Assembly (NCBI GenBank): GCA_015493585.1
Contig: WGCW01000186.1
Coordinates: 1-51,805 of the forward strand
Direction: 5' to 3'
Source: Acidobacteriota bacterium
GTDB taxonomy: Bacteria; Acidobacteriota; Thermoanaerobaculia; Thermoanaerobaculales; Sulfomarinibacteraceae
DNA length: 51,805 nt
Part shown: piece by piece, positions 11,951 to 27,727 of the stretch
Position numbering within the stretch: the stretch's first letter is position 1
Layout: every line of letters begins with the position of its first letter
Position numbers and translations under genes: made by a program
Notes under the pieces: generated by a model
What the model saw: the letters and a program-made list of their open reading frames with translations, nothing else
Database searches by the model: none
What the model was told of the DNA's origin: nothing

Positions 11951-11960
11951 TCACTCGAGG
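11741..11960. mobile_element. MITE-like element, copy A (degenerate left end)
   Basis: About 220 bp. The body is alignable with the copies at 33991 and 42621: GGATGAGATATGCCAAGATC near the left, CCGTAGGCCGGCTGAGC in the middle, CAGATCGCCTGAGAGAATCG at the right. The right terminus, read inward, is CCTCGAGTGAGCGATTCT, like the other copies; the left terminus has decayed. The right end overlaps the last three sense codons and supplies the TGA stop of the FHA/AAA+ regulator gene. Confidence 0.75.
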
Positions 11961-13774
11961 CCGGATGGCATACCAAGTCTCTTCATCTTCTTGAAAAGCC
12001 CGGCACGGCTGATTCCAAGCTCTTCAGCGACGCGGGTCCGGTTTCCCCCGTGCTCATCGAGAGATGCTTGAATCAAAACCCGCTCGAACACATCCCTGGC
12101 CTCCGAGAGGGACATGCCATTGAATAACGCCAGATCGAGCGCTGGCCGGGCTCCTGGGAAACCGCCCCCAGGCGTCACTGAAAGATGGGCCGTGTCGATA
12201 ATCGCCCCTGGAGTCAGCGAAGAGACCGCCCGGATGATCTCGCTGCGAAGCTCTCGAACATTCCCCGGCCAATCGTACGCCGTCAACGCTTCCAGGGCGC
12301 GCACCGTCAGCCCCCGAACCGGCTTGTGCATCTTGGCGGCCGTTTCTTCGAGGAAGGCGTTGACAAGGACCGGAATATCCTGCCGCCTCCGTCGCAAAGG
12401 GGGGATATGGATGCGCAACACATGAAGGCGGTAGTACAGATCTGCACGAAAACGCTCCGCCTTGACCTCGGCATCCAGATCGCGGTTCGTCGCCGAAATA
12501 ATCCGTACATCGCACTTCGTGGGAGCATCATCGCCCACCCGGTAATACTCTCCAAGCTCCAGCACCCGCAGCAGCTTCCCCTGTAAGCCCAGTGGCAGGT
12601 CCCCAACTTCATCCAAGAAGAGAACCCCGTGATCGGCAACCTGGAACTTTCCCTTTCTGGCGCTGACTCCCGTGGCAGCTCCCGGTGCGACGCCAAAAAG
12701 CTCCGCCTCGATCAGCTCAGAGGGGATTGCCGCACAGTTGACGGCGACGAACGGCCCACCACTCCGGTGAGACAGCATGTGTATTGCACGGGCGAAGAGC
12801 TCCTTGCCCGTCCCACTTTCGCCGGTGATCAGGACCGGCTCCTCCTGGCGCGCGTAGCGCTCTGCAAGCGACTTACATTTCTTGAGGGAGGGGGAGCTTC
12901 CGAGAATGCCCTCAAATGCGGCACCATTCCCACGTTTCCCTGCCACAGCGGCCTTTTCGCCACCACGAGGCGCCGCCGCCGCAGCGTTGAGAACCACTTT
13001 GAGCGACGCAAGAATCGCAGAAAGATCCGAAGCCGCCGGCGGAGTCACACCGTACTGGATCACCAGCACATGCCGCTCGTCAAGCGCGCTCGCCAAGAAC
13101 CGCGTGCCAAACTGGTCCGTATCCTGAACGACAACCTTCTTCTCTTGGAGGATCTCATTCCCGACTTCCGTCAGGCTGTTCAAGGTCTTTCGGTCCGACG
13201 GATCAAGGTCGAGGTTCCCCGCGCTGGTGATGAGCGACAGCTGACCAGCATGACCTTTGAAAAGGATCATCCCGCCTTCAAATCCAAAGCGCTCAACAAC
13301 CCACCGCAACAGCGTGCCGATCGAGCAACTTTCCGCGCAGCGCGCCGTCATCTCAAGGAGGGCCACAATATCGTCAAGGTCCGTGACAGGCTGGTACCGC
13401 CCGGTGTCAACACTGGATTCTGGAACTTCAACACCGTCAGTGGGTTGAATCTCGGATGCCAGACCGAACGAACCCGAGGACACCTCAACGATCACCAAGC
13501 GGGCCGATGACACCATGATTTCGTCGCCACAGTGAGCCTCGGCCGACGTCACCGGCTGGCCATTGACACGGGTTCCGTTCTTGCTCTTGAGGTCGGTAAT
13601 ACGGAAGCTCCCATCGGCGACATCGAGAATCGCATGGGCTCTCGACACATCTGGCTGAGGGATGACGATATCATTGCCCCGCCTCGAGCCGATCCGGTAC
13701 GTCCGGTGTTTGTGAAGCTCAAAACGTTGCTCGCCAAGCTCAGGATGAAAGTAGACCAAGAGGTAGTGTGCCAT
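11951..13774 (-). CDS. FHA-domain AAA+ enhancer-binding-type regulator with atypical GAFTGA loop
   Basis: 607 residues. An N-terminal FHA domain (residues ~25-95: YRIGSRRGND, SRAHA, KNGTRVNG) should bind phosphothreonine. A GAF-like region covers ~120-260. The AAA+ domain has Walker A GESGTGKE (318-325) and Walker B LFLDE (385-389). A Fis-type helix-turn-helix is at the C-terminus (NRTRVAEELGISRAGLFKKM). The loop that should read GAFTGA and contact sigma-54 is GAATGV (365-370). This places it among FHA-type regulators that may not activate sigma-54 conventionally. The start is ATG 13774 with no clear ribosome site. The gene lies downstream of the ClpX-like gene, with 62 bp between holding a C5/G5 hairpin (~13807-13823). 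Confidence 0.9.
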   Translation of the reverse strand: MAHYLLVYFHPELGEQRFELHKHRTYRIGSRRGNDIVIPQPDVSRAHAILDVADGSFRITDLKSKNGTRVNGQPVTSAEAHCGDEIMVSSARLVIVEVSSGSFGLASEIQPTDGVEVPESSVDTGRYQPVTDLDDIVALLEMTARCAESCSIGTLLRWVVERFGFEGGMILFKGHAGQLSLITSAGNLDLDPSDRKTLNSLTEVGNEILQEKKVVVQDTDQFGTRFLASALDERHVLVIQYGVTPPAASDLSAILASLKVVLNAAAAAPRGGEKAAVAGKRGNGAAFEGILGSSPSLKKCKSLAERYARQEEPVLITGESGTGKELFARAIHMLSHRSGGPFVAVNCAAIPSELIEAELFGVAPGAATGVSARKGKFQVADHGVLFLDEVGDLPLGLQGKLLRVLELGEYYRVGDDAPTKCDVRIISATNRDLDAEVKAERFRADLYYRLHVLRIHIPPLRRRRQDIPVLVNAFLEETAAKMHKPVRGLTVRALEALTAYDWPGNVRELRSEIIRAVSSLTPGAIIDTAHLSVTPGGGFPGARPALDLALFNGMSLSEARDVFERVLIQASLDEHGGNRTRVAEELGISRAGLFKKMKRLGMPSGLE

Positions 13775-13836: not shown

Positions 13837-15006
13837 TTACGCCAGCCCCAGCTCCCGTTTGACCATCGCCGCAGAGATCTTGATGCGGTACCCGCCATCT
13901 GGCAGCTCTTCGAGAGCCTTGCTCTCGAACGGATCAAACTCGACGCGATTGATAATCTTGCCGAAGATCATCCGGAGCGCACGGGCTCCCGTCCGGGTGT
14001 GCTTTTGCGCCTGTTCCGCAATCAGGGCTGCGGCCAGATCATCGATCTCGAGTGAAATACCCATGACCTCGAAGTAGCTTCTCGACCGGACGAAGGGAGA
14101 ATTGAGCGATTCCAGCAAGATCTGCTTGAGCACATCTCCACTGAGCTCATTGAGCAGAACGATATTGTCAAAACGTGCCATGAACTGCGGCACCATGCCG
14201 TAGGTAAAGAGATCCTCGTCTTTGAGAAAATCTCCAAGCGTGAACCTCGTTTCGATATGGACTGTTCCATCCGCTGAACGAATGGCCTGGGACTTCAGTT
14301 TCTCACCGCTTCCCGGTTTGATCACCCGAAGGTAAACCTGGTCGTAGAGCTCCTCGAAAGCACCACCGCAGATGAACATCATGTGGCTCGTGTCGATATC
14401 GAGTGTGATCTGGCGCTCTTCGCCATCGACAACGGCATAGGTCCGGTACGAAACCTGCTCTCCCTCCATCAGCGTCAGCAGCCCCTGTTGGAGTACGACG
14501 CCAATGGCGTTGGGTTTCCCCGCAACAATGGAGGACATTTTGTCAATCTCGTCGATACAAACCGTCGCTTTCTCCATAGCGGCCTTGAGCTCGTCCGCAG
14601 TGACCTTGCGGCCAAGGAGCGTCCGTGCCCGCTGCTCGATTGCCGTCAAGAGCCGGTCAGGACGGAACTCCATCCGATCTGAATCGACGAGAAGGTTGGC
14701 GTTGATGATCGTCATCGCCTGGAACGGCCGGTACTCGGGAATATCACGATACAAACGTTGGATGTTGTTCATGATCGTCGTCTTACCGGTCCCAGAGTTT
14801 CCGATCAGAAGAATATTGCCCGAGACCTTTCCGGTGACATGCTTGTACACGGCAACAGACACGTAGCGCAACGCACGGTCCTGGCCCAGGACACCGCGCT
14901 TGAGCTCCTGAAAGATCTCCCGCGGTTTGATCTCCGCCAGCGGCCGGGAACCGGCGGACCCATCCGCCCGCCCCTCGCTCGTCACTTCGCGGCCCTGCTG
15001 GCTCAT
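13837..15006 (-). CDS. ClpX-like AAA+ ATPase without zinc-binding domain
   Basis: 389 residues. ClpX/HslU-type ATPase core: GQDRALRYVSVAVYKH, Walker A GNSGTGKT (69-76), Walker B CIDEID (151-156), a sensor-2-like GARALRMIFGKI near the C-terminus. The N-terminal Cys4 zinc domain of canonical ClpX is missing, replaced by ~25 polar residues. The ORF lacks the usual clpP neighbour. It may be a specialised unfoldase or chaperone rather than the housekeeping ClpX. The ATG at 15006 follows GGGAGGGCTGAG and starts 1 bp after the aminopeptidase stop, so the two genes are co-transcribed. Confidence 0.85.
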   Translation of the reverse strand: MSQQGREVTSEGRADGSAGSRPLAEIKPREIFQELKRGVLGQDRALRYVSVAVYKHVTGKVSGNILLIGNSGTGKTTIMNNIQRLYRDIPEYRPFQAMTIINANLLVDSDRMEFRPDRLLTAIEQRARTLLGRKVTADELKAAMEKATVCIDEIDKMSSIVAGKPNAIGVVLQQGLLTLMEGEQVSYRTYAVVDGEERQITLDIDTSHMMFICGGAFEELYDQVYLRVIKPGSGEKLKSQAIRSADGTVHIETRFTLGDFLKDEDLFTYGMVPQFMARFDNIVLLNELSGDVLKQILLESLNSPFVRSRSYFEVMGISLEIDDLAAALIAEQAQKHTRTGARALRMIFGKIINRVEFDPFESKALEELPDGGYRIKISAAMVKRELGLA

Positions 15007-15007
15007 C

Positions 15008-16204
15008 TCAGCCCTCCCGAACCCACACACGATTCCGTGGGATCAACTGGATGCCGTCAATCATGACCGACCTCCCACATCCGCCACTCCGAAAGTCCGT
15101 CACGATGTCCACGTGCTGCGCCGACCGGTTCAAGATCCCCAGCTCTTCGAGCTCGTGGATGCGTGCCTTCCCTTCCTCGGAAGACGGATCCTCGACGTAA
15201 CACTCTTCGTAGCTCGCGCCGATCGCGATATGGAGCGTACCACCCACCTTTTCGACGAAGAGCGGGTGCTTCAAAACGCGGTCGAGGCCGGGGTTCATGC
15301 CGAGCGCCACCTCGCCGAGCCGGTGAGAACCATCGTCGGTCTCGATGATCGCCACAAGGTGCTCCGCCCCCGTTTCCGCGCTGTAGCTGACGATGCGGCC
15401 TCCATCGAACTTCAGATAAATCCCCTGAATGTCGTTCCCGCCGTAGTTGACGGGCAGATCGACGAAGATTTCGCCCTCAACCGAACGGGCATCCGGGCTT
15501 GTGAACACCTCGCCATCGGGGAAGTTCCGGAGGCCGTAGGAAAGCACCGCACGGCTCGATGACAGATCCATCGTGAGCCGGAGCTCCCGGCCGTCGCTCG
15601 GGTGTTCGGTCTCGATCACAATCTCACGACCTTGATCGAACACAGGAGCGATCGCCTCTTCCGCACGCCGCAGCTCGCGTGGATCGGACGTTGAAGCTCG
15701 AACGATGAACTGCGTGTACTCTTCGAAATCCATCCCCTCCATGGCGGCGGCTGCGGGCGTCGGGTAGAGGGTAATCACCCACGGCTTACTTAGACGCAGG
15801 GTGGAAAACGGTTTGTCAGCCGCCGCCAGGCGCTGGGCCTGTTCCGCAGTCAACCCCATGAAGCTCTCAGGGTCTTCTGCACCGAGCACCTCGACGTACT
15901 TCGTCATACTCTCGTAGCGTTTCCGGTGCCATTCGGGAATCCGCTCGGCCTGTTTGGGTGTGCCCCACCGGGCCATCGCAGCGGACCAGACGCGCCCGCG
16001 TTCATTGTTGGGTGGAATCAGGTACACATCGGGGATGCCACCCGCCTCGATGACGCGCCTCTCCAGAATCTCCATCAACGGCCACGCCACCCGCTCACCC
16101 TTGATCATCACGCGATCCTCGGACGTGATGCCCCCGAGGGAATGATCTAAGAGATAGCCCGCCCACGTTTCCAAGTCTTCACGTCGAATATCTGGCTCAC
16201 GCAT
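15008..16204 (-). CDS. M29-family metallo-aminopeptidase
   Basis: 398 residues, the normal length of AmpS/aminopeptidase T proteins. The dinuclear metal site and catalytic segments are visible: FPDGEVFTSP, LGEVALGMNP, HIAIGASY and HVDIVTDF near the C-terminus, supplying the expected Glu, His and Asp ligands. It should be a cytoplasmic broad-specificity aminopeptidase. The start is ATG 16204. The gene sits between the DUF1573 gene and the ClpX-like gene, all on one strand with gaps of 37 and 1 bp, suggesting one transcript. Pairing with an unfoldase-like ATPase could reflect shared peptide turnover, but that is inference. Confidence 0.92.
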   Translation of the reverse strand: MREPDIRREDLETWAGYLLDHSLGGITSEDRVMIKGERVAWPLMEILERRVIEAGGIPDVYLIPPNNERGRVWSAAMARWGTPKQAERIPEWHRKRYESMTKYVEVLGAEDPESFMGLTAEQAQRLAAADKPFSTLRLSKPWVITLYPTPAAAAMEGMDFEEYTQFIVRASTSDPRELRRAEEAIAPVFDQGREIVIETEHPSDGRELRLTMDLSSSRAVLSYGLRNFPDGEVFTSPDARSVEGEIFVDLPVNYGGNDIQGIYLKFDGGRIVSYSAETGAEHLVAIIETDDGSHRLGEVALGMNPGLDRVLKHPLFVEKVGGTLHIAIGASYEECYVEDPSSEEGKARIHELEELGILNRSAQHVDIVTDFRSGGCGRSVMIDGIQLIPRNRVWVREG

Positions 16205-16241: not shown

Positions 16242-17444
16242 TTAGGACAACGGGCTCGATCCCGGTGGGGGGAGCTTTGGATCCCCTGGCACCTTCTTGA
16301 CCGGAGCTCGCTTTGGCCGGAGAACTCTCTTGATTGGAGCTCCTTGCGGCCCGAGCAAATGGATTTTGGGCGGCAGGGGAACCGCGCGGCGAGTGGTGAC
16401 GAAAACCGGGATCGTCATCGACGGATGTTTCGGATCATCGGTCTTCACCGTCAACGTTGCATGCAGGCCTCGTTTGGCCGCTTTCAGCCCAGCCGCCCGA
16501 TCGAGACCGACCCTGACCCTTTCGACAGTTCCCAGGCCAGGCGGCATGATGACAATCTTCAAAAGCTCAGGATGATCGGTCTCGACAGAGCGGATATGAA
16601 ACCGGGTGCTCCCATGCGCCCGCACTTCAACTACTCTCCAGTACTCCTTGGGGCCTCGTATGCCAACGATAAACTGCAAGCGCGGCGGAACGATCTCCAG
16701 TGTTGACCGGACGTGGACAAAGAGCGGGAGCACGAGCTTCGGCTGACGAGGATCGTTCGTCATGAGCTCCACTTTTCCACTCCGGGACATCGCGTGGGGG
16801 GCAGCCGGGAAACTCACCATCATCCACACGTCTCCAGGACCGGCCTTCAATCCGCGCTGATCTTCCGCCTTGGTGACACCGGACCAGGTCACCTTCACGA
16901 GCCCAGCCGGCTCGATGTGCGTCTGGAGAATCTTCAACGGCTTTCCGTCCTGCCGGTGGAGCAGCACCTTGGTCTCAGCGGGCCGGTTCTCCCACGTGTT
17001 CAGCCAGAGCCGCGGGGAGGGACGAACCTCGATCGGCGCGATGACCGTCGCGTTGAGCCTGAGAACGATTTGTTTCAGCCCGGGATCGTTTGTGACAACC
17101 CGGATCGTCTTCGATATCCGCCCGTTCTGCTGAGCGTGTGTATGGACCTTGGCGACGAGCTTTCCCGACCCACCTGCCGGGATCACCGAGTCATGCTCGG
17201 CGACCGTGCATCCTCAAGAGGGGGCCGCGCTGAGAATCCGGATCGGCACTTTCCCAGTGTTCTTGAAAATGAAGGTGCCCACGACGTCGCGGCCGGCGAG
17301 CACCTGTCCCACGTCGAGGACGACGTGGTCCACGTGGAGCGAAGGTACGGCCTTCGCCGGAGAGCCCCCCCGCGTTTGAGCCGCAGCGACGACAACACCC
17401 ATCGCCAGCAGACTCGACACCAAAATCGCTTGTTTCTTCCACAT
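16242..17444 (-). CDS. DUF1573 exported protein with in-frame TGA (candidate selenocysteine 77)
   Basis: 400 codons if the TGA at 17216-17214 is read through. Residues 1-22 form a signal peptide. The first DUF1573 domain (residues ~35-140) has FIFKNTGKVPIRILSAAPS, then TGA, then GCTVAEHDSVIPAGG: exactly the family's conserved SCGCT site with the first Cys codon replaced by TGA. The frame stays open for 323 further codons containing two more ASPM/MSP-like beta domains and a Pro-rich tail. A stem-loop at SECIS distance follows (17181-17205). The ATG at 17444 has a GGGGAG ribosome site. The gene lies 108 bp downstream of a di-haem cytochrome c gene. Alternatives are a nonsense mutation or a sequencing error (TGC to TGA). 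Confidence 0.75.
17181..17205 (-). promoter_or_regulatory. Candidate bacterial SECIS stem-loop
   Basis: Read on the minus strand, the TGA is followed by 8 nt (GGATGCAC), then GGTCGCCGAG, loop CATGA, and CTCGGTGATC. This gives a 10-bp stem with two G-U pairs; opening the closing G-C pair puts a G at the first position of the apical loop. The TGA-to-loop distance is 17-18 nt, within the range described for bacterial SECIS elements. The structure is inside the coding sequence, as required in bacteria. I could not compute folding energies. Confidence 0.6.
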
Positions 17445-17552: not shown

Positions 17553-18320
17553 TCACCTGTGTGCAAAAGACCGGTTGTGAAGCCAAACCAGGTAACGTCT
17601 CAGGAGATCGGTTTCCGTCGAATCGAGCTTCGGCCCAAAAGCAGGCATCCTGAGCACCGGGCCAGGCACCCATGGCAGAGGCACGCGCTTAGGCGTCGCA
17701 CCGGATTGCAGCAATGCCGCAAACGCATCGGGCGAGCTCAGGGCCTTGCCGGCATCCGGGCGCATCCAGCCTGGAACAGCACCGGACAGGCTCCCAGGGT
17801 TTGCAACACCGCCCGACCCGAGAGGACCATGGCAGCGGAAGCACTCCATCTGCCGGGCGATATCGTGACCCGCCGCAAGCTCCGGGTCTTCCGGAATACC
17901 GGCAAGCCCCGTCAGCACACCGACAGCGAGCGCAAGGTTGTTCCGCTTCCGCACGGTCAGACGGCTCCCGTAGGCCGGCATATCCCCAACGCCGAAACCC
18001 GCTTCTTCCGGCCGTCCGTTGACAACGGCGTCCCGGATCACCTCCAGCGACGCCGGTGCCGCCCCATCCGCGCGCCAGCGGAGTGCTCCCGTTCCGGTTC
18101 GATGACAGGCCACGCACCCTTCGTGCTCAAAGAGCTCCAAACCGGTGCGGACGGCATTGGCCCCCCTGCGCCTCCACATCCAGCGATAGGCGGGGAGCGC
18201 CACCAGCACAACGACGATCATGCCGATGAAGAGCCACACGGTGAGCCGGTTCCGCCTCGCCCGGGCCGCAACCCGGGGACGCTTGACCTTGGTTTTGCTG
18301 GATTTCGCCGCCCGCGGCAT
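17553..18320 (-). CDS. Membrane-anchored di-haem cytochrome c
   Basis: 255 residues. A basic N-terminus is followed by one membrane anchor (LTVWLFIGMIVVVLVALPAY, residues ~26-45), then a periplasmic part with two haem-binding motifs, CVACH (69-73) and CFRCH (160-164), each with a downstream Met-rich segment (VGDMPAYG, VLRMPAFG) that may supply the distal ligand. It probably passes electrons in the periplasm. ATG 18320 has a GGGAGGTGCGC ribosome site. It heads the minus-strand run cytochrome-DUF1573-aminopeptidase-ClpX-like and is divergent from the helicase gene (98-bp gap). Confidence 0.88.
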   Translation of the reverse strand: MPRAAKSSKTKVKRPRVAARARRNRLTVWLFIGMIVVVLVALPAYRWMWRRRGANAVRTGLELFEHEGCVACHRTGTGALRWRADGAAPASLEVIRDAVVNGRPEEAGFGVGDMPAYGSRLTVRKRNNLALAVGVLTGLAGIPEDPELAAGHDIARQMECFRCHGPLGSGGVANPGSLSGAVPGWMRPDAGKALSSPDAFAALLQSGATPKRVPLPWVPGPVLRMPAFGPKLDSTETDLLRRYLVWLHNRSFAHR

Positions 18321-18418
18321 GCGCACCTCCCACAGCCTCACATGGAGGGCAACATTGTACACGCCAGACGGATCCCGAAGGGCTGATCCACCACCGCTCA
18401 CGCGCCGGGATCGTTACA

Positions 18419-20836: not shown

Positions 20837-21700
20837 TTACGTCAGATATCCGGAGAGCGCTTCCCGTTTGTGGCTGCGCCGCAGCTTCGCCAAAGCGCGG
20901 TTCTCGATCTGACGAACCCGCTCACGCGACAGTCCCAGAATTCGTCCGATCTCACGGAGCGTCTTCGGCTGATCATCATGGAGGCCGAAGCGAAGCTCGA
21001 GCACTTTCCGCTCGCGCTCGGGCAGATCGGCGAGCGCATCTTCGAGCACGCTGAGAAACGACTCGCGCAGAATGCGCTCGTCGGTATCGGGCAGCACGCT
21101 CTGCTCGAGAAGATCACCGAGCTCGGAATCTCCATCCGCATCCACCGGCTCGTTCAACGAGAGTGAGCTCAAGCTCACTCTCGACAGAACGGAAACATCT
21201 TCGACACTGAGTCCGAGCTCGTCGGCCAACTCCTCAACCGTTGGGGGACGGCCGAGCTGTTCGGTCAAAGCTCCGCGGACGCGTTCAAGACGGTAGAGCG
21301 TATTCGCCTGCTTCTGGGGAAGGCGAAACGTCGCCGCCTGCTCGGCCAACGCGTGAAGAACCGCCTGGCGAATCCACCACACGGCATAGGTAATGAACTT
21401 GACATCCTGCCCCTTCTTGAAGGGGTTGTACTTCTTGGCAGCTTGAATCAGCCCGAGATTCCCCTCATGAATCAGATCGAGGAATGGGACGTTTGGATTC
21501 CGGTACCGTTTCGCATAGGCCACGACAAAACGGAGGTTCGCTTCAACCAGTTGCCGAAGTGCCTCTTCATCGCCAGCCTGAATGCGACGTGCGAGCTCAA
21601 GCTCCTCCTCATGCGTCAGCGTTCTGTACTGCGAAATCTCCCGAAGGTACCGCCTCAGCGTTGCCGCCTCGCTGTCGGAGACCTGGCGCTGAGCCGTCAT
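20837..21700 (-). CDS. Sigma-70 family RNA polymerase sigma factor (group 1/2-like)
   Basis: 287 residues. Region 1.2 (LRRYLREISQYRTLTHEEE), region 2 (NLRFVVAYAKRYRN, FLDLIHEGNLGLIQAAKKY, KFITYAVWWIRQA), region 3, and region 4 with the HTH TLREIGRILGLSRERVRQIENRALAKLR are all intact; the long region 1.1 of primary sigma factors is absent. It is a RpoD/RpoS-like group 2 factor or a short primary factor; I cannot tell which. The ATG overlaps the hspR stop by 4 bp (ATGA), making it the last gene of the dnaK-hsp20-hspR operon, so its level should rise with heat or folding stress. Confidence 0.93.
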   Translation of the reverse strand: MTAQRQVSDSEAATLRRYLREISQYRTLTHEEELELARRIQAGDEEALRQLVEANLRFVVAYAKRYRNPNVPFLDLIHEGNLGLIQAAKKYNPFKKGQDVKFITYAVWWIRQAVLHALAEQAATFRLPQKQANTLYRLERVRGALTEQLGRPPTVEELADELGLSVEDVSVLSRVSLSSLSLNEPVDADGDSELGDLLEQSVLPDTDERILRESFLSVLEDALADLPERERKVLELRFGLHDDQPKTLREIGRILGLSRERVRQIENRALAKLRRSHKREALSGYLT

Positions 21701-22071
21701 TCGTCTTCAACCGGTTGAATCATCCCCGAGCGTGCCCGGACAATGGCGTGATAGTGTGGCACTCCCTTCTCCTCTTCGAGCTTCTTGCGGAGCAACTTTG
21801 TCAGCATCTCCATTTCCCGCTGCAAGTGCTGTACCTGTTCACGAAGGTTGAGAATGATCTCCACACCGGCAAGATTGACGCCAAGGTCCCGGGTCAGCGT
21901 CAGAATCGTCTCGAGCCGCTCACAGGTCTCGTCATCGTACAACCTGGTATTGCCCTCGGATCGCCTCGGACGCAACAACCCTTCCCGTTCCCAGAGGCGA
22001 AGCGTCTGGGGATGGACACCGTACTTCTCGGCGACCCACGAGATCATGCGATATCTGGGCTCCGACGTCAT
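21697..22071 (-). CDS. hspR: MerR-family heat-shock repressor HspR
   Basis: 124 residues. The N-terminal MerR helix-turn-helix reads YRMISWVAEKYGVHPQTLRLWEREGLLRPRRSEGNTRLYDDE (quoted in parts: VHPQTLRLWEREGLL and NTRLY), the HspR-type variant. A coiled coil follows (VEIILNLREQVQHLQREMEM). HspR represses dnaK operons by binding HAIR sites with DnaK as corepressor; a HAIR-like site is present upstream of dnaK here (24543-24563). The gene overlaps hsp20 and the sigma gene by 4 bp each, so all three are translationally coupled. Confidence 0.93.
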   Translation of the reverse strand: MTSEPRYRMISWVAEKYGVHPQTLRLWEREGLLRPRRSEGNTRLYDDETCERLETILTLTRDLGVNLAGVEIILNLREQVQHLQREMEMLTKLLRKKLEEEKGVPHYHAIVRARSGMIQPVEDE

Positions 22072-22566: not shown

Positions 22567-24498
22567 TCAGTTGCTCCCGTCCGAATCCACATCGACGTAC
22601 TCCGCGTCGATGACCTCATCTTCTTCAGGACCCGATGCCTGAGATGCGGAAGCTCCAGATGCAGCCCCCTGTCCGGCAGCCGGGCCTGCAGCCTGAGCAT
22701 CCGCCGTCTGATACAGCTTAGCGGCGAGCTGATGGCTCGCTTGCGTCAAACGTTCGTACGCCGTTTCAAGACGCTCCTTGCCACCTTCTTCAAGGGCCCG
22801 TTTCGCGTCAGCCAACACGTCGTTGATCGTCCCGAGCTCCGCTTCGGGTAACTTCTCCTTATTGTCATTAATAAGCTTCTCTGTCGAGTAGACGAGCGCG
22901 TCGAGCTTGTTGCGCGCGTCGATCTCCTCGCGCTTCTTCGCGTCCTCGCTCTCGTGCGTTTGAGCTTCGCGAACCATCTTCTCGATCTCTTCATCACTCA
23001 AACCGGACGAGCTTGTAATCTGGATCTTCTGCTCCTGGCCGGTTGCCCGGTCCTTTGCCGCAACGTGGAGAATGCCGTTGGCATCAATGTCGAAGGTGAC
23101 CTCGATCTGCGGAATGCCCCGCGGTGCCGGCGGAATTCCCATGAGATGGAAACGGCCCAGGGTCCGGTTGTCTTTCGCCATCGGCCTCTCACCCTGCAGG
23201 ACGTGGATCTCGACCTGGGTTTGGTTGTCTTCCGCCGTCGAGTACACCTTCGATTTCCTGGTTGGAATCGTGGTGTTCCGCGGAATCACGACGTCTGTCA
23301 CGCCGCCCAGCGTCTCCACTCCCAGGGACAGCGGCGTCACGTCGAGCAGCAGGACGTCCTTGACCTCACCACCGAGCACACCGGCCTGAATCGCGGCCCC
23401 GATCGCAACGACCTCATCGGGGTTCACACCTTTGTGCGGCTCCTTCCCGAAGAAATCGCCGACCAGCTTCTGCACGAGCGGAATCCTGGTCGAGCCGCCA
23501 ACGAGAACCACCTCGTCGACGTCCTTGGCCTCGAGGCCGGCATCTTTGAGAGCCAGTTTGCACGGTTCGATCGTACGTTTTACGAGGTGATCGATCATCT
23601 GTTCGAGCTTCGAGCGGGTGAGCCTCATATTGAGGTGTTTCGGCCCCGACGCATCCGCCGTCACGAACGGGAGATTGATTTCGGTCTCCATCGTTGACGA
23701 GAGCTCAATCTTGGCCTTTTCGGCGGCCTCCTTCAACCGCTGCAGCGCCATCTTGTCCTGTGAAAGATCGACGCCCTGATCCTTCCGGAACTCCTGCACC
23801 ATCCAATCAATGATGACCTGATCGAGGTCGTCGCCACCGAGGTGCGTATCTCCGTTGGTCGACTTGACCTCGACCACGCCTTCGCCAACCTCCAGGATAG
23901 AAATATCAAAGGTGCCACCGCCAAAGTCGTATACAGCAATGGTCTCATCCTTCTTCTTGTCCAGCCCGTACGCCAGGGCGGCTGCCGTCGGCTCATTGAC
24001 GAGGCGCACAACCTCTAATCCGGCGATTTGTCCCGCATCCTTGGTCGCTTGCCGTTGCGAGTCGTTGAAGTAGGCGGGGACGGTGATGACGGCTTTCTCG
24101 ACCTTTTCCCCGAGATAATCCTCAGCCGCAGCCTTGAGCTTCTGCAGGATCATGGCGGAAATCTCCGGTGGTGAGTAGACCTTCCCCTGAGCTTCCACAC
24201 GGGCCGTGTCGTTCTCTCCCCTAACGACCCTGTAGGGCACGTTGTTGATCTCGTCCACGATTTCGTCGTACCGGCGCCCCATGGCTCTCTTGATCGAGAA
24301 AATCGTGTTTTCCGGGTTTGTGATCGCCTGACGTTTCGCGACCTGGCCAACAAGTCTCTCTCCGTTCTTCGCAAAGGCGACGACGGACGGTGTCGTCCTG
24401 CTCCCTTCCTGATTGGGAATGACGGTCGGCTTTCCGCCTTCCATGACGGCGACGACCGAATTTGTCGTCCCGAGGTCAATGCCGATGATTCTGGACAT
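22567..24498 (-). CDS. dnaK: Chaperone DnaK (Hsp70)
   Basis: 643 residues, full length. The N-terminus is [50 protein letters not shown] and [10 protein letters not shown] complete the ATPase domain; the substrate-binding domain ([14 protein letters not shown]) and helical lid follow, with the tail ending in an acidic [13 protein letters not shown], the usual DnaK C-terminus that binds cochaperones. The ATG at 24498 has a perfect AGGAGG site. First gene of the operon; no grpE or dnaJ lies nearby. Confidence 0.99.
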
Positions 24499-24533
24499 GA
24501 TAGAAACCTCCTCAGTTTTCGTTACCAAGGAGC

Positions 24534-24617: not shown

Positions 24618-25913
24618 CTATTCAAGCAGGACGACGCCCGGGGTGCCTGGAGCTTGCCCGGACGCACTTTCCCACGCCAATCCGCGCGAGAGGAGAAGCT
24701 TCGGAACCGGTTCTCCACGGGCGTCCGTCCCGGCAGCGAGCAACTTGTGACCCCGGACGACCATGAGATACGTGCGGCCCCACGGATCGATAATGTCTTT
24801 TGGGCGCAACATGGAGGATCGAACGAGGTCCTGAGGCGACTCCGGATAGACACCCCTGACAAAATACTCCGTTTCAGCGGCCGCAAGGAGGTGCCTGATG
24901 CGGTACCAGGAGATATTCTCAACGATGTACCTATTCCACAGACTGCTCTTGAGGTGGAAAGCTGGGTTGACCGGGTTTTGAGGCATGATGGAAAGTGAGA
25001 AACCCAGCAAGACGAGGAAAGGAACAACAAGCCAGGGCACGGCGCCGATCCCCAAGCCTTTGGACCGCACCGGCTCCTGAGCCCGGCTGAGCTCCTGCGC
25101 GACCTCCTCCGGTGTTGCCTCCCGAATCAGGCCGCGATCCAACAGCTCGGCCAGCGCCTTGCAGGTCTCAAAGTCGATCAGCTCGCTCTTGAGAATGATC
25201 TCGCTGACCGCATCGTGACCGTTGACCATTTGATAGACCGACATCTCATTTGGCGTCACTTGATCCGGTTTGCGCTCCTGCCGGTCTTCTTTCTGCGGCG
25301 AATCAGTGAAAGAAAACCCAAGGAGATCTTCCCCTTCCTCGTCCGCCTCTTCACGAACCGTCAACTTCTTCCCCGGATCGACCTTCCTGAAGATCATCGC
25401 ATGGTCTGGAATCCGCTGATTGATGAACGGCCATTCGTCCGTCATCCGGGCGCCTTCCATGATGATGGAATCGACGGCAAGCGGGGTCATCAGATCCCTA
25501 TCAAAGTCGATATCCGTCTCCTGAGAGAAGTGATACTCCCCATCACTCCACCTAAACACCCGGTAGACGACCTGAAGGATCTGTTGTTCCAACGCTTGCC
25601 GGACGGCCTCTTGCGGCACCATGCCGGCATCGATTAAAATCCGCCCAAGCCGCTGCAGCGTTTCTTCCTGCTTGCGAAGCGCCACCTCGAGGTTTGCCTC
25701 AGACAACACCCCCTGCTTGAGCAAAATGAGGCCGAGCCGGTCCTCTGCTCTCTGGCTCAAGGAGCTCGTTGCCACGATCTTTCCCTCGAGGAATGAGATG
25801 GTGACGACATCGTTCTCATTCTTGAGGGTCAGAACTCCCGTCTTCCGTTGCAACGAGATCAATTGCAAGATATCCGCGAAACTAAAATCCCGAAGGGTGC
25901 CCTCGAGCGCCAT
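24618..25913 (-). CDS. DUF4388 (PATAN-like) protein with C-terminal membrane anchor
   Basis: 431 residues. Starts with the DUF4388 signature MALEGTLRDFSFADILQLIS, followed by KTGVLTL and FLEGKIVATS; a helical region (LEVALRKQEETLQRLGRILIDAG) and a second winged-helix-like segment (YQMVNGHDAVSEIILKS) follow. One membrane helix (AVPWLVVPFLVLLGFSLSI, ~residues 295-315) precedes a C-terminal domain with RTYLMVV and DARGEP, resembling the pseudopilin-like type II secretion GspG fold. Role unknown; DUF4388 proteins often act in motility or signalling. Start ATG 25913 shares a base with the preceding stop (TGATG). Confidence 0.8.
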   Translation of the reverse strand: MALEGTLRDFSFADILQLISLQRKTGVLTLKNENDVVTISFLEGKIVATSSLSQRAEDRLGLILLKQGVLSEANLEVALRKQEETLQRLGRILIDAGMVPQEAVRQALEQQILQVVYRVFRWSDGEYHFSQETDIDFDRDLMTPLAVDSIIMEGARMTDEWPFINQRIPDHAMIFRKVDPGKKLTVREEADEEGEDLLGFSFTDSPQKEDRQERKPDQVTPNEMSVYQMVNGHDAVSEIILKSELIDFETCKALAELLDRGLIREATPEEVAQELSRAQEPVRSKGLGIGAVPWLVVPFLVLLGFSLSIMPQNPVNPAFHLKSSLWNRYIVENISWYRIRHLLAAAETEYFVRGVYPESPQDLVRSSMLRPKDIIDPWGRTYLMVVRGHKLLAAGTDARGEPVPKLLLSRGLAWESASGQAPGTPGVVLLE

Positions 25914-27727
25914 CACACCCCTCCCCACGATGCCCGGATCGTATGGAACCAACTCAGCGCAAGAATGACGATCAGGACGATCTGGGCGGGAACGATGCTC
26001 CCCTGAGGCTCTATCTCAGCGAGAACCTGGGGAAGCCACCCGAGCGCCAGAAAACCGGAGGCAATTGCAACGAAGCTCCAGAGGAGCCCGATCTCCCAGC
26101 GCCCCTTCACAACCATTCCGCCCCCAGGAATGATGAGAGACAGAATACGGCACGTCCACGTCATGCGCTGCTGACGCTTTCGAATCTGGTCCAGCTTCGC
26201 CGCCTGTTGCTCGATCGCAACCTGATCACGTTTGAGAAACACGGACACGCACTGACTGCAATAGGCCTCACTTTCAGACGCGCCATGGCATCGTGGACAA
26301 AAGACCTTCCCGCATCTCGTGCACGCACGCGCCGTCCACATCCAGCGCTTTCTCATCAGAGCCACGATCACACCCAACAAACCCGTCACCAGGATCACGA
26401 GAGACAGAGACTGAAACGGCCACTTCCAGGACCACATGCTCCCTGGGATCATGCCCAGACTAACGAGCTCGCTGCGTGGAATGGCTGTCAGGAGCCGCTG
26501 CATGTCATGCTCTCCAACCAACGGGTCTACCGGCATGGCCGCCGGCCCATCCCCGATGATCTGCTTGAAGCGCTCACCTCCAAGCTGCCGGGCCTTGCTC
26601 CTCATCCTGTCGGCCTCCTGGAACCTGTAACTCTGATCCAGTGCCAATGAAAGATCGTAGTAGGCCAGCGGCTCGGCTGGGTTCCTCTTCATCGCTAAGC
26701 TGTAACTTTGAATGGCGCCGGGAAGGTTCCCCTCGTTGAAAGCCAGGTTGCCCAGGAAGATCAGTGGCCTTGGATCACCGGGAGCCTCCACGGCAGCTTT
26801 CTGAAACTGGACCCTGGCACTGGGGGCATCATCGTGAAGACGGAAGACGTCGCCCAGGAGAAGATGATACTCGGCGTTCTTCTTCAACTTGGGTTCCAGA
26901 CCAGCGAATTCCTGAACCATCGCTGGATCTAAACGCTTGTCCTGTAAGGAGGCCACCACCCGCCGGGAAAGGGGCAGATCTCGAAGTCCTGAATGTTCCC
27001 ACACGTTGAGACATGGGACGATGCACAGAAGGAGCACCCATACAACGGCGCTCGTCACCCGTTGCTTCCCCTGAAGATAGGGAAAGGTCAAAGCAAAGAT
27101 ATACGCGACCAGCCACACGGGGCCGAGCCCCGCGAAAATCGGCAGGGTCACGATGACGACGGCAAACACGGCCGCATCAGGCCCCTTGAAGATGATCGAG
27201 CCAAGCTCATGCGCATCATGGTACATCCTTGTGAAAAACTGAGCGGCAATCAGGAGAACGCCGACGAACAATACGCCCCCGAGGGCCATCAAAAGAAATG
27301 GCACGAGCGATCCGAGCACTTCACGCCGGCTCAGGGCGTTCGTTACCGCCGTCAACCATCCCCTGCCGTATGAGATGACAGCGCTCCCATACTTTCCATC
27401 CGACCATGCCTGACGCGCCAAGACGAACCAAACGGAGGGTTCTCCCGGATCGAGACCACGGGCGAGCCTGGCGGCCACATCACCAATCTTGCCCGGTTCA
27501 TGAGCGGCCCACGCCGCAAGAGCACGCGCATACGGTGTCAGATGTCTCACCCCAAGCTGACGGGCCCGTTTCTCGACACCCGCCACGTTCGATCGAAGTG
27601 ACTCCACATCTTTTGCATTCAGGGACTTCTGAACCTTAAACCACAGCTCTCCAAGCGTGGGGCCGGCATGGGCAGGCAACGCCCCCGCAACAATCAAGAT
27701 CAAAATGAGGAGAAGGCGTTTCTTCAT
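25913..27727 (-). CDS. Exported-N-terminus membrane protein with TPR repeats and zinc ribbon
   Basis: 604 residues. Residues 1-21 form a signal peptide or first membrane segment. Three to four membrane helices occupy ~135-230. TPR-like repeats lie between ~285 and 385 (YHLLLGDVFRLHDDAPSA, PLIFLGNLAFNEGNL, PLAYYDLSLALDQ). A double zinc-ribbon CTRCGKVFCPRCHG plus CSQC is near 475-500, followed by further membrane segments. Function unknown. It lies between DUF1844 and DUF4388 genes with 4-bp and 1-bp overlaps, so the three form a unit. Confidence 0.75.
   Translation of the reverse strand: MKKRLLLILILIVAGALPAHAGPTLGELWFKVQKSLNAKDVESLRSNVAGVEKRARQLGVRHLTPYARALAAWAAHEPGKIGDVAARLARGLDPGEPSVWFVLARQAWSDGKYGSAVISYGRGWLTAVTNALSRREVLGSLVPFLLMALGGVLFVGVLLIAAQFFTRMYHDAHELGSIIFKGPDAAVFAVVIVTLPIFAGLGPVWLVAYIFALTFPYLQGKQRVTSAVVWVLLLCIVPCLNVWEHSGLRDLPLSRRVVASLQDKRLDPAMVQEFAGLEPKLKKNAEYHLLLGDVFRLHDDAPSARVQFQKAAVEAPGDPRPLIFLGNLAFNEGNLPGAIQSYSLAMKRNPAEPLAYYDLSLALDQSYRFQEADRMRSKARQLGGERFKQIIGDGPAAMPVDPLVGEHDMQRLLTAIPRSELVSLGMIPGSMWSWKWPFQSLSLVILVTGLLGVIVALMRKRWMWTARACTRCGKVFCPRCHGASESEAYCSQCVSVFLKRDQVAIEQQAAKLDQIRKRQQRMTWTCRILSLIIPGGGMVVKGRWEIGLLWSFVAIASGFLALGWLPQVLAEIEPQGSIVPAQIVLIVILALSWFHTIRASWGGV

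Follow-up and report, generated by a model that had tools for sequence, protein, structure and literature searches.

Selenoproteins of the DUF1573 family that carry a UGC motif are tabulated in two reviews, both of which cite Zhang & Gladyshev 2007 (PMC9312934; PMC13188914). One protein of this kind, 'OS_HP2', is listed with pfam07610 and a UxC motif (PMC2398784); it was first listed in 2007-2008, from the delta symbiont of Olavius algarvensis. The original prediction for the locus described here knew of no described DUF1573 selenoprotein, and the novelty this implies does not stand beside the existing OS_HP2 entries (PMC2398784; PMC9312934; PMC13188914).

We analyzed a window of 51,805 nucleotides, the whole stretch of DNA under study, from a marine Acidobacteriota bacterium. 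The window protein shares with OS_HP2 the PF07610 family and the U-G-C motif, which here reads P-S-U-G-C-T (residues 75-80), but it comes from another phylum, and the comparison between the two runs through the motif, Pfam and the NF041425 model only. This NCBIfam model, 'OS_HP2 family (seleno)protein', matches the window protein with E=9.8e-25 and 86.8 bits against a curated cut-off of 100, and the genome search also stays below the cut-off. The Cys paralogue scores 85.8 bits and the other tested clade members 63-92 bits, all under 100. Scores under the cut-off place the window protein outside the curated subfamily; we class the gene as a new member of the DUF1573 selenoproteins with a UGC motif and not as a member of NF041425.

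Two other known systems are close to this locus. Cys-containing DUF1573 proteins (CGCT motif) have the same domain and motif as the window protein, but carry Cys in place of selenocysteine (Sec), largely lack the SECIS stem and fall in a separate clade. SECIS elements of bacteria, that of E. coli fdhF for example, are stem-loops within the coding sequence right after the UGA, with a small loop that contains a G. By description, the window element resembles the fdhF SECIS in its placement and in the G of its loop, and differs from this type in having a second short conserved hairpin directly behind it. What is new here is the Acidobacteriota clade, the coexisting Cys paralogue and the second conserved hairpin behind the SECIS.

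An in-frame TGA within a DUF1573 gene

The gene and its internal TGA codon lie as follows.

16242-17444, minus strand: DUF1573 selenoprotein gene of 400 residues, with ATG at 17444, Sec codon TGA at 17216-17214 and stop at 16244-16242
17214-17216, minus strand: TGA codon of Sec77, at the alignment position of the first Cys in P-[ST]-C-G-C-[TA]

The start codon ATG occupies 17444-17442 on the minus strand, and the TGA is the sole break in the frame that runs from 17444 to 16242. Past the TGA, 323 sense codons follow in the same frame as the ATG before the stop is reached, whereas an ordinary ORF call returns only a fragment that starts at 17186, 3' of the TGA. The surrounding residues read NTGKVPIRILSAAPS-[TGA]-GCTVAEHDSVIPAGG in the minus-strand translation. 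In the read-through translation, the PF07610 match covers both sides of the TGA (residues 39-135, E=3.6e-16) and scores 59.4 bits against a gathering cut-off of 26.1. These results agree with the original prediction that a TGA replaces the first Cys of an SCGCT-type motif (codon 17216-17214 within P-S-C-G-C-T), that the flanks lie in one frame and both match the family, that the frame stays open for 323 codons afterwards, and that the second Cys is retained in a U-x-C arrangement (Cys79).

Comparison of this genome with a same-genus relative shows that codon position 3 differs at 50% of sites on either side of the TGA, while positions 1-2 differ at 13-16% of sites before it and at 14-21% after it. 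The constraint on positions 1-2 after the TGA indicates that the downstream part is constrained coding sequence. Other conserved in-frame TGA codons found between the window and the same-genus contig are mostly shadow-frame matches, and the codon at 17216 is the convincing one.

Two conserved hairpins follow the TGA

Folding of 17216-17165 recovers the 10-bp stem that had been predicted to start 8 nt past the TGA, and comparison of the Sec genes adds a further hairpin.

17182-17204, minus strand: SECIS stem-loop, 9-bp stem pairing 17204-17196 with 17190-17182, and a 5-nt loop CAUGA that contains a G
17164-17181, minus strand: second hairpin behind the SECIS stem, CCCG, 10-nt loop, CGGG

Folding energy is weak as evidence (z between -0.4 and -2.1) and not decisive alone, so the significance of the hairpin comes from comparison across species. 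We aligned 21 Sec genes (alignment A2), in which stem columns 13-21 pair with 27-35 and the second hairpin pairs 36-39 with 50-53. Across both hairpins, 96.9% of cells are paired and 12 cells have changed on both sides; none of 500 shuffles reached the observed pairing, and sliding the partner along the alignment drops it below 48%. In the clearest case, L025 and L034 replace GAG...TCG with GGG...CCG, which retains the stem although Glu becomes Gly and Ser becomes Pro. Similarly, all distinct Sec genes retain four of four pairs in the second hairpin, where L063 and L075 show a compensatory change from G-C to U-A.

In the same columns, 24 Cys genes are 52.6% paired, and the three pairs at the apex are for the most part broken. 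At the third base of codons +5, +6, +8, +9, +11, +12, +14, +15, +16 and +18, fixation reaches 90-100% among the 21 Sec genes, against 33-92% among the Cys genes. The check proposed for the SECIS thus finds a stem that is present, conserved with covariation and largely missing from Cys genes. Conservation of the amino acids could account for some of the pairing; as its main cause, such constraint is made unlikely by the pattern at third positions and by the control with Cys genes. At the window site, a covariance model of the element reaches 90.5 bits, and its search of the genome found nothing else convincing. One match of this model, at C110:14175, is spurious. That the second hairpin takes part in recoding is conceivable, and we consider it doubtful.

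The genome encodes the selenocysteine machinery

The window's assembly spans 3.10 Mb in 194 contigs, is 99.6% complete and includes a tRNA-Sec gene (75.9 bits), which ARAGORN also calls as tRNA-Sec with anticodon TCA. Genes for selA (494.5 bits), selB (317.8 bits) and two copies of selD (359 and 358 bits) all score above curated cut-offs. The search proposed in the original prediction, for selA, selB, selD and tRNA-Sec (selC), thus finds every one of them in the same assembly, and since selA, selB and selC are present, the chief objection foreseen for a selenoprotein at this locus falls away. The two selD genes (L018 and L019, at G000:C16:1149-2072 and G000:C116:11455-12378) are both full and of near-equal score, and occur despite a single DUF1573 selenoprotein gene being found in the genome. 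The same genome yielded no Sec-type formate dehydrogenase.

Sec genes form a clade beside Cys paralogues

We searched 20 genomes of the same family, the window's genome included, for orthologues. A Sec orthologue is found in 18 of them, always with TGA at the same codon (18/18) and in the shared codon context P-[ST]-TGA-G-C-[TA]; the TGA position is retained among these orthologues down to about 30% identity. The two genomes in which no Sec copy was found, G012 and G019, are only 83% and 65% complete. Together with three genes from a second Acidobacteriota family (L063, L073 and L075, which appear again as L140, L137 and L141), TGA occupies this codon in 21 Sec genes. The phylum scan and the tree identify the second family as f18, which holds the more distant Sec copies.

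Homologues outside this set have Cys at the codon. TGC or TGT is found in all 12 homologues from a sister family of the same order, in two class-level homologues, and in 18 Cys paralogues within the family genomes, one of which is from a genome without a Sec copy. The suggested inspection of the Cys/TGA column therefore yields a perfect split, with TGA in the 21 Sec genes and TGC or TGT in the homologues. The window's own genome encodes a Cys-type DUF1573 paralogue (P-T-C-G-C-T) at G000:C71:18138-19148 (L132:8998-10020). This paralogue adjoins genes for an IF-2B-family protein, TsaD and LepA. The Sec copies, those of the second family included, group in the tree as a single clade with support of 100/100, separate from every Cys copy; some pattern matches are due to chance, among them L138, a long outlier in the tree to which we give no weight. 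The Sec copy is thus a dedicated paralogue beside a Cys-G-Cys copy in the same genomes.

A scan of named genomes with a DNA pattern containing the TGA gave 63 matches, 17 of which encode the selenoprotein. The remaining matches are due to chance or unrelated, a recurrent match in Opitutae among them. In many Opitutae/Verrucomicrobia contigs (L058, L062, L066 and others), the pattern falls in AAPW-TGA-GCAV, which is not DUF1573. All records in which the scan found the Sec form are Acidobacteriota (labeled Thermoanaerobaculia, Thermoanaerobaculales, 'Holophagae' or Acidobacteria); since the search pattern is specific to the motif of the clade, absence of the form elsewhere means little. A related-locus scan of genome contigs with a protein query gave no match, perhaps owing to the short, exact back-translated patterns that it uses. 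Among the records with the Sec form is FeB_10, the name behind the GTDB family FEB-10, which has been renamed Ca. Sulfomarinibacteraceae (PMC8528874). The Sec clade belongs to Thermoanaerobaculia, and the window's genome probably to Ca. Sulfomarinibacteraceae.

Predicted export, fold and the U-G-C site

Two features of the protein can be placed on the window.

17373-17444, minus strand: probable signal peptide, MWKKQAILVSSLLAMGVVVAAAQT, with a basic start, a hydrophobic core and an AxA-type end
17040-17339, minus strand: first Ig-like domain, residues 36-135, from the AlphaFold2 model and the PF07610 and PF22544 matches

The orthologues share the type of N-terminus seen in the putative signal peptide of the window protein, and the DUF1573 selenoprotein is, judging from its sequence, probably exported. 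An AlphaFold2 model built from an 18-sequence alignment consists of three beta-sandwich domains at a mean pLDDT of 85.2. The predicted fold is accordingly a row of three DUF1573/HYDIN-type Ig-like domains. The best Foldseek matches are ASH/HYDIN-type Ig-like domains (central-pair proteins and 2qsv from Porphyromonas gingivalis), in agreement with PF22544. Identity in the listed matches is, however, 8-15%, and global TM-scores are about 0.16-0.28 of the query; the likeness is a domain-level resemblance that does not imply shared function. A sequence search found no close solved relative.

In the model, strands 68-75 and 79-84 of domain 1 are joined by a turn that carries U77-G78-C79. Residues 77 and 79 are invariant among the aligned relatives, and the mature window protein has no Sec or Cys besides Sec77 and Cys79; the same holds for most relatives. 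The protein does not resemble a thioredoxin-fold selenoprotein, as the model is all-beta and Ig-like and the spacing is U-x-C rather than CxxU or UxxC. On balance, U77-G-C79 would most likely serve as a selenol/thiol redox pair. Against such a role, the protein lacks a thioredoxin-like fold, and no conserved operon or partner gene surrounds the Sec loci compared.

Gene neighborhood

The genes near the selenoprotein gene and further along the window are as follows.

11951-13774, minus strand: FHA/sigma-54 activator
13837-15030, minus strand: AAA ATPase
15008-16204, minus strand: M29 family aminopeptidase, downstream neighbor (PF02073, E=1.5e-46)
17553-18401, minus strand: cytochrome c with two CxxCH motifs, upstream neighbor (PF13442, PF00034)
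20837-21700, minus strand: sigma-70 factor
21697-22071, minus strand: MerR regulator
22567-24528, minus strand: Hsp70
24618-25952, minus strand: DUF4388 gene

The di-haem cytochrome gene pointed out upstream in the original prediction is real, but it is not a conserved partner, as a homologue lies nearby in 2 of 20 other Sec loci. Similarly, a homologue of the M29 peptidase adjoins the gene in only two other loci, and comparison of the gene neighborhoods of the Sec loci revealed no conserved neighbor across the clade. We therefore reject the cytochrome as a functional partner, and its presence says little about function.

Selenocysteine insertion and alternative explanations

The locus combines a UGA at a column where homologues have Cys, a downstream SECIS, and selA, selB, selC and selD in the genome. 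From the machinery genes and the RNA element we infer, with high confidence, that the TGA at 17216-17214 is read as selenocysteine. The stem-loop about 9 nt past the UGA would recruit SelB with GTP and Sec-tRNA-Sec, so that selenocysteine would be inserted at codon 77 in place of termination. The product would leave the cytoplasm through the signal peptide read from its N-terminus and form the three predicted Ig-like domains, and Sec77 and Cys79 would then most likely cycle through a selenenyl-sulphide outside the cytoplasm.

Other readings of the TGA fare poorly against the comparative data. A single genome, in an assembly of 194 contigs, could not exclude a pseudogene or a sequencing or assembly error; the same TGA in 21 independent genes from diverged genomes, purifying selection downstream of it and Cys at the codon in homologues leave this explanation with practically no probability, and the orthologues sharing the TGA already refute it. 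Some bacteria read TGA as Trp, and an altered code or a suppressor might place this or another amino acid here, or the codon might simply end a short truncated protein. But the upstream cytochrome gene itself terminates in TGA, which is thus a stop there, the column holds Cys and never Trp in homologues, and the genome has tRNA-Sec and its enzymes, while a truncated product leaves the selection on 323 downstream codons unexplained; we regard this reading as scarcely credible. It is also very improbable that the conserved bases after the TGA reflect protein constraint only, with an incidental hairpin. The protein motif is itself conserved and the folding energy exceeds that of shuffles by a small margin only, but third positions are near fixed in Sec genes and free in Cys genes, the stem shows compensatory changes, and it is largely missing from the Cys genes.

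The main rival to redox use of U-G-C accepts selenocysteine and takes the site to bind a metal, such as Cu, Hg or Zn, in an exported scavenger or metallochaperone. A C-x-C or U-x-C pair with no other conserved Cys would suit such a role, as would an exported protein with an Ig-like scaffold and no thioredoxin fold; no metal-transport or resistance gene was identified among the neighbors scanned, however, and no invariant His lies near U-G-C. We consider metal binding a possibility to be taken seriously, though not a probable one. A further reading, less likely than not, is a dedicated Acidobacteriota clade of exported Ig-fold selenoproteins, maintained beside a Cys paralogue, in which the recoding signal would be bipartite, with the second hairpin joining the SECIS stem in insertion or pausing.

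These findings add Acidobacteriota of the class Thermoanaerobaculia to the users of a DUF1573 selenoprotein. Standard gene callers will cut this protein short or overlook it. No function has been assigned to DUF1573. Because a whole bacterial family strictly keeps so costly an amino acid at a single position, residues 77 and 79 stand out as the working site, and through these two residues the function of a widespread domain becomes testable.
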